Of a stretch of DNA of 56,693 nucleotides, positions 51,531 to 52,325 are shown one piece after another (position 1 is the stretch's first letter; every line of letters begins with the position of its first letter). The DNA is taken from NCBI RefSeq assembly GCF_014859555.1, contig NZ_JACUTY010000007.1, positions 1 to 56,693 of the forward strand. Direction: 5' to 3'. Below the pieces are notes generated by a model that was given only the letters and a program-made list of their open reading frames with translations, was not told the origin of the DNA and ran no database searches. This stretch comes from Thiomicrospira sp. (lineage in GTDB: Bacteria > Pseudomonadota > Gammaproteobacteria > Thiomicrospirales > Thiomicrospiraceae). Position numbers and translations under genes: made by a program.

Positions 51531-52325
51531 ATGTCAAACCCGGACCTAAACAGCCAAGAAAAACATCAAGCGTATAAAACCGGCTACCGGTTTGGCCTAA
51601 AAGGGCGGAGTTTAAGTCACATTCCGAGTCAAATTCGCGGCAACACCCAATTACGAAGTTTGTATGATCAAGGCTGGCAAGAAGCCCAACAAGAAATGAT
51701 GGCCGGTGATAAGTACGATAAAAAAAACTACATACGTCATCGCGTGATATGGATTGTCATGACCGCACTGGCGGGTATCATTACCGCCTACCTGATTATT
51801 CAAAACAGCCAGGTTGATTTACCAGATGCGCCCAGTAAACAAGCGGCCCCTGTCGTTAAGACCTCTACTTTGATACCTATCAATACTCCAGCAGATTGGG
51901 AGTCGGTTGATAGTTCGTCTCTTAGCTTGCTATCGGACCAGGAACGCCTAAGTTTGTCGGAGGTAAATCAAGCCCATCCGGTTATACCCAAACAAGCCGT
52001 TAAGCCTCTCAATCAAGAGTTTAAGGTTAGTCTGTATAATGGTGATAATGCAGAACAAAAATTTACAGCTGGAGCACATCTACCCAAATATGTCCGTCAG
52101 CTTATATTGGAAGTAGATACACATGATTTTAATAAGCCGATGGCCTTAACAATTCGTTGGCTGTGGCAGCGCCATTTAATACAAACTCAAAACTGGCCAG
52201 CGGAACGCTCGATTATTCAATCTAAACAATCGCTGTTTAGTGCTCAACAAGGGGCCTGGGCCATTGAAATACTTGACCCTTCAGGCCAACTAATTTACCT
52301 TTACGAATTTAGTTATGTTCAATAG
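51531..52325 (+). CDS. RMF-like domain, transmembrane helix and DUF2914-like domain
   Basis: 264 residues. Residues 13-58 resemble ribosome modulation factor: AYKTGYRFGLKGRS, a proline, a spacer and GWQEAQQEM, matching the GYxxGxxGRS...GWxEA pattern of RMF. One transmembrane helix follows at about 73-91 (VIWIVMTALAGIITAYLII). After a Pro/Ser-rich linker, the periplasmic C-terminal domain (about 165-264, ending IYLYEFSYVQ) looks like DUF2914. It starts 18 bp after ftsY. A membrane-tethered ribosome-binding role is an inference. Confidence 0.6.
   Translation: MSNPDLNSQEKHQAYKTGYRFGLKGRSLSHIPSQIRGNTQLRSLYDQGWQEAQQEMMAGDKYDKKNYIRHRVIWIVMTALAGIITAYLIIQNSQVDLPDAPSKQAAPVVKTSTLIPINTPADWESVDSSSLSLLSDQERLSLSEVNQAHPVIPKQAVKPLNQEFKVSLYNGDNAEQKFTAGAHLPKYVRQLILEVDTHDFNKPMALTIRWLWQRHLIQTQNWPAERSIIQSKQSLFSAQQGAWAIEILDPSGQLIYLYEFSYVQ

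Follow-up and report, generated by a model that had tools for sequence, protein, structure and literature searches.

The ribosome modulation factor (RMF) known so far is small and soluble, so a gene that appears to carry the RMF fold as the head of a membrane protein, directly beside the gene of the SRP receptor, raises a simple question: is the tethered head in contact with ribosomes, or is it a general docking module? Such a gene lies in a stretch of 56,693 nucleotides of DNA from Thiomicrospira sp. (here, the window). A preliminary description of it, made from the DNA letters alone, had proposed an RMF-like N-terminal segment, one transmembrane (TM) helix and a DUF2914-like periplasmic domain, and had suggested that the tethered RMF could hold or sense ribosomes at the membrane. 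Whether the head contacts ribosomes or docks something else, the answer has a bearing on the evolution of RMF-like domains and on a possible tie between the envelope and translation.

Gene, protein architecture and predicted topology

The open reading frame starts with ATG, and its bounds are exactly those of Table 1. Hydropathy analysis of the product gave a single peak, in the 19-residue segment starting at residue 72 (mean Kyte-Doolittle 2.4, against 0.6 for the next best elsewhere), in agreement with the one helix described earlier. In the full-length model, helices span residues 9-23 and 39-93, and the second of these continues without a break out of the RMF domain and across the membrane. 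Beyond the membrane, pLDDT falls below 50 at linker residues 99-127 and 149-161, stretches that, judging by the model, are probably disordered; the motif between them is modelled as helices 128-131 and 136-147. We predict a single-pass inner-membrane protein with its N-terminus inside and its C-terminus outside. The positive-inside rule, applied to the basic juxtamembrane stretch, places the RMF domain in the cytosol, and the C-terminus is placed in the periplasm because most other DUF2914 proteins of the class look secreted or membrane-anchored.

Table 1. Coordinates of the gene, its predicted domains and its neighbours in the window
Feature	Start	End	Strand	Residues	Basis and remarks
ftsY (SRP receptor)	50466	51512	+		Sequence, conserved neighbour; ends 18 bp upstream of the gene
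Complete gene (RMF-fold head, TM helix, linker, DUF2914)	51531	52325	+	264 aa	ORF, homologues
Cytosolic RMF-fold domain (predicted side)	51555	51707	+	~9-59	Pfam/NCBIfam RMF, profile-profile, fold match to RMF structures; strongest constraint
Basic juxtamembrane stretch KYDKKNYIRHR	51708	51746	+	60-72	Sequence and model
Single transmembrane helix	51747	51806	+	~73-92	Hydropathy peak, model helix, family alignment
Periplasmic linker, low-confidence, probably flexible	51807	52022	+		pLDDT; length variable among homologues
Conserved short linker motif, consensus LxLLSxxxRxDL	51912	51971	+		Family alignment and model
DUF2914-like beta-sandwich	52023	52316	+	165-262	Sub-threshold Pfam, homologues over cut-off, model
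SLT_4 lytic-transglycosylase-domain lipoprotein	52341	52988	+		Pfam PF19489, 243 bits, conserved neighbour; 15 bp downstream of the gene

The N-terminal domain is a divergent homologue of RMF

Scanned alone, residues 1-61 retrieved RMF as the top family in both Pfam (PF04957; 22.1 bits, E = 1.6e-4, with residues 11-55 aligned to profile positions 8-51 of 53) and NCBIfam (NF011162; 23.9 bits, E = 2.9e-5). Neither score reaches the curated cut-off of its family (27.9 and 40 bits, respectively), so the single-sequence scan alone is sub-threshold; a single-sequence search of the PDB found RMF at E-values of only 0.16-0.52, too weak by itself. At the level of the family, a profile of the Thiomicrospiraceae homologues scored 35.9 against an RMF alignment, compared with a maximum of 21.9 among 300 column-shuffled RMF controls and 7.5 for reversed RMF. 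When two distant homologues were added, profile-profile comparison with RMF gave a probability of 96.8% over 44 columns. The RMF alignment (A4) comprises five RMFs taken from sequenced loci and an E. coli RMF sequence that we take to be correct.

The domain as modelled by AlphaFold2 (pLDDT 82, pTM 0.67) returned three RMF structures as its first matches in the PDB—2jrm, 9iot, and 6h4n—with probabilities of 0.99-1.00, TM scores of 0.68-0.78, and rmsd of 1.3-2.3, after which probability dropped steeply. The corresponding Foldseek E-values stayed modest, at 0.08-0.4, in keeping with a query of only 61 residues. Between them, the shuffle-controlled family profile, the profile that includes distant homologues, and the fold match make the homology firm: residues ~9-59 form a genuine, if divergent, homologue of RMF. 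The segment that the preliminary description had placed at residues 13-58 thus does match RMF profiles, and it lies on the side of the membrane predicted to be cytosolic, judged by charge and by the periplasmic DUF2914 end.

Residues retained and lost relative to RMF

Yoshida et al. (PMC8126665) examined, by mutation, the residues that do not vary among 50 RMFs. Ribosome binding needed each of G16, C29, W40, and W44 and was abolished when any one of them was changed to alanine, and dimerisation needed G23 and R45; the 16S rRNA is contacted at helix 28 by R3 and K5, and at C1536 of the anti-SD by R45 (PMC8126665). Removal of the first five residues abolished ribosome binding. The single mutants R3A, K5A, R11A, and R45A reportedly still bound the ribosome but failed to dimerise it (PMC8126665).

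We compared these positions, in E. coli RMF numbering, across 22 aligned homologues from the family. The structural core of RMF is kept, with G16 and G43 present in all 22, P30 in 21, G23 in 20, and W44 in 18, and A12 is retained as well. C29 is replaced by M, I, A, or L, and W40 by F, Y, C, or S, mostly F. Every homologue has D, E, or H in place of R3 (D or E in 20), neither K nor R occurs at K5, R11 is retained in 2/22, and R45 is never R (E in 10, Q in 4, H in 4, D in 2, F in 1, and N in 1). The basic tail of RMF, MKRQKRD, is missing from every tethered form, and the net charge of the domain is +1 in the window protein and -2 to +3 in its homologues, against +7 for E. coli RMF. The suggestion that the head works as RMF does therefore finds no support: R3, K5, and R45 are absent in 22/22 homologues, with reversal of charge at R3 and R45. 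Since the single mutants still bind, loss of any one of R3, K5, R11, or R45 is a stronger argument against 100S formation than against binding.

Other basic positions are retained, R37 as R/K42 in 22/22 homologues and R24 as K/R26 in 19/22, and given these the head may contact RNA; it may also bind ribosomes through another surface. The family heads also have invariant residues of their own, K16 and R20, which stand in place of Q14 and Q18 of E. coli RMF; the two lie one turn apart on helix 1, and R36 is mostly conserved. The two distant homologues have kept neither K16 nor R20. When the window is compared with its nearest relative, dN is 0.07 in the head and ~0.2 in the linker and DUF2914 part, with dS near saturation, so that ratios are rough. 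Purifying selection on the head, the most constrained region of the protein by sequence, together with the lost RMF residues, indicates that the domain is in use but not as a standard RMF.

Distribution and gene neighbourhood

Homologues were found at tblastn level in 25 of 36 Thiomicrospiraceae genomes, and a strongly diverged homologue occupies the same slot in two further genomes of the family (G002 and G007). Named homologue records come from the sulfur oxidisers Hydrogenovibrio, Thiomicrorhabdus, Thiomicrospira, and Sulfurivirga, genera by which we name the family Thiomicrospiraceae. G003, G005, G006, G008, G015, and G022 lack the gene, and there the transglycosylase gene comes immediately after ftsY. 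The position beside ftsY, noted from the window alone at the outset, is conserved: ftsY precedes the gene in 14/14 named loci where sequence covers that side, and the SLT_4 gene and fabB lie downstream in most named loci. A search for terminator-like sites on the + strand of the 18- and 15-bp gaps in the window found none, which makes it likely that ftsY, the gene, and the SLT_4 gene form one transcription unit.

The same architecture, RMF–TM–DUF2914, also occurs at low identity in two other gammaproteobacterial families, represented by carriers in G092 and G082 with RMF scores of 18-24 bits and DUF2914 scores over cut-off; searching the family and order to which each of these distant carriers belongs gave one genome apiece. 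The gene order in G092 is ftsY-ftsE-ftsX-[gene]-rpoH, with no SLT_4 gene beside the gene, and the carrier in G082 (L124) has no ftsY nearby. Linkage to ftsY is thus found in two families, whose local gene order differs, and was not seen in the third family. The G092 homologue (L123; G092:C96, 3390-4163), encoded between ftsX and rpoH, keeps G16, C29, W40, and W44 and has lysine at R45; by sequence it is closer to RMF than is the window's own family.

Among phylum-wide RMF matches with long open frames we found no further RMF–TM–DUF2914 fusion, the matches being mostly small soluble RMF-like proteins. Another locus (L069/L140; G138:C300:20723-20851, - strand) encodes an RND-type transporter that ends in a cytosolic RMF-like domain, scoring 37.9 bits in Pfam and 42.4 against the NCBIfam threshold of 40. 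It is a second, unrelated membrane-tethered RMF domain, and it passes both cut-offs.

The DUF2914-like domain

The C-terminal domain of the window protein scores 18 bits against DUF2914 (Pfam PF11141), below the cut-off of 23.6, and most homologues lie above it (26-76 bits); residues 165-262 are modelled as a beta-sandwich. Across the class, DUF2914 proteins mostly carry an apparent signal peptide or membrane anchor, as judged by eye. Fold matches of the domain model in the PDB were dominated by the beta-sandwiches of UNC119, PDE6D, and RhoGDI, and also included PmoD (target TM 0.54). With target TM scores of only about 0.3-0.4 for UNC119, PDE6D, and RhoGDI, we do not claim lipid binding by the DUF2914 part. 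Elsewhere, L088 (G213:C30) is a DUF2914 protein with a TM anchor and, in the cytosol, a short basic tail but no RMF domain; it adjoins fabB, whose product is 71.6% identical to the FabB of the window.

Ribosome hibernation factors and FtsX

A search of 36 family genomes for a soluble RMF over cut-off found none, and no soluble RMF was seen as a substitute in those family genomes that lost the gene. In E. coli, the level of RMF rises when FtsY is depleted, and hibernation has so far been tied to just three membrane proteins, YqjD, ElaB, and YgaM, of which YqjD associates with the 30S subunit via its N-terminus (PMC10502375). The genome of the window encodes one short HPF, about 110 aa from its ATG.

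FtsX was found in 0/35 Thiomicrospiraceae genomes (G000-G034), compared with 16/20 other gammaproteobacterial genomes. In most gammaproteobacteria it is encoded just after ftsY, and FtsEX exerts cytosol-to-periplasm control of wall hydrolases. In the same Thiomicrospiraceae genomes the usual ftsE-ftsX-rpoH is missing downstream of ftsY. We considered replacement of FtsEX as the main mechanism and demoted it, as relatives without the gene also lack FtsX and one carrier (G092) has both. Because those relatives keep the SLT_4 gene as well, the gene cannot simply stand in for FtsEX.

A possible repurposing of the RMF fold, and its alternatives

RMF and DUF2914 are both known domains, and their combination here is a new architecture. 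A search of the open-access literature found no published RMF-membrane fusion and no relevant account of DUF2914, in keeping with the preliminary description, which knew of no system of this form. The reading that we favour, with a chance of being right that we put at about even, is that the RMF fold has been repurposed as the cytosolic docking head of a single-pass envelope protein, without RMF-type 100S formation. The head descends from the RMF fold and has lost the residues with which RMF grips 16S rRNA, and because of this loss it would not form 100S ribosomes as RMF does. It may instead bind a cytosolic partner through a basic surface of its own, made up of the invariant K16, R20, and R/K42 and the mostly conserved R36. 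As the second helix is predicted to run unbroken through the membrane, a binding signal could pass along it to the flexible linker and the DUF2914 beta-sandwich. The periplasmic part would then act on the envelope, a role suggested by the SLT_4 lipoprotein encoded beside it and by the lack of FtsX in the family. It may plausibly do so together with the SLT_4 transglycosylase, to which gene order links it; against this link, several relatives without the gene keep ftsY-SLT_4, and the G092 carrier has ftsE-ftsX intact and no adjacent SLT_4 gene.

The original suggestion, that a tethered RMF holds ribosomes at the membrane, fared less evenly: the fold, the predicted cytosolic side, and the linkage to ftsY speak for it, and the missing rRNA-contact residues weaken it. 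Recast as a hibernation or docking factor whose head binds the 30S subunit via an altered surface and holds idle ribosomes near the SRP receptor, in the manner of YqjD, it is possible though rather doubtful. What keeps it alive is the lack of a soluble RMF over cut-off alongside a short HPF, together with the E. coli data on RMF and FtsY and on YqjD, ElaB, and YgaM (PMC10502375). Further points in its favour are the retained R42 and K/R26, the new K16, R20, and R36, and a distant homologue, L123, that keeps all four single residues essential for ribosome binding (PMC8126665). It is set back by the loss of all the named contact residues (R3, K5, and R45, the first and last of them replaced mostly by acidic residues), by the need of RMF for its first five residues in binding (PMC8126665), by a head of near-zero net charge, and by the several relatives that have neither the gene nor a soluble RMF in its place. 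A bolder version—a transmembrane RMF whose head docks ribosomes or 30S subunits via a rebuilt interface while DUF2914 senses the envelope, coupling ribosome silencing to the state of the membrane and cell wall—we regard as unlikely; if true, the coupling would occur in a lineage without soluble RMF.

The head might alternatively serve FtsY and the SRP pathway, its basic face binding FtsY (for example, the N-terminal A domain) or the translocon and tuning membrane targeting. The closest and most constant neighbour is indeed ftsY, in two families whose gene order otherwise differs, and K16 and R20 would offer a conserved basic patch. The argument is one of gene order, however, and both the third carrier of the architecture, which has no ftsY nearby, and the loss of the gene from several relatives, which marks it as non-essential, make this accessory role distinctly unlikely. 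That the likeness to RMF is due to chance, in a helical hairpin that happens to carry glycines and a tryptophan, is highly improbable: single-sequence scores under the curated cut-offs would allow it, but the shuffle controls, the family-level match, the three RMF structures that head the fold search, and two distant proteins of the same architecture with similar RMF scores all argue against it.

Comparison with known systems

Under the repurposing that we favour, the fold of RMF is reused as a membrane-protein head beside the gene of the SRP receptor. With RMF itself the head shares the two-helix fold, the equivalents of A12, G16, G23, P30, R37, G43, and W44, and a cytosolic location, here a predicted one. 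RMF is small, basic, and soluble, whereas the near-neutral head is part of a 264-aa protein that continues into a TM helix and a periplasmic domain; the head also lacks the basic N-terminal tail, R3, K5, and R45, and C29 and W40 are replaced. YqjD, ElaB, and YgaM of E. coli likewise place a cytosolic N-terminal part on a membrane anchor. They are C-tail anchored and have no periplasmic domain, whereas the TM helix here is internal and followed by about 170 residues, and the window protein had no Pfam match to these proteins or to another membrane ribosome-binding family. FtsX is likewise a transmembrane protein encoded just after ftsY, but has no sequence relation to the window protein, and one distant genome (G092) has both FtsEX and this gene. 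Finally, other DUF2914 proteins (PF11141) share the same C-terminal domain, and most are periplasmic by apparent signal peptide or TM anchor; most of those surveyed have no cytosolic domain or a short tail, whereas an RMF-fold head occurs in three families only.
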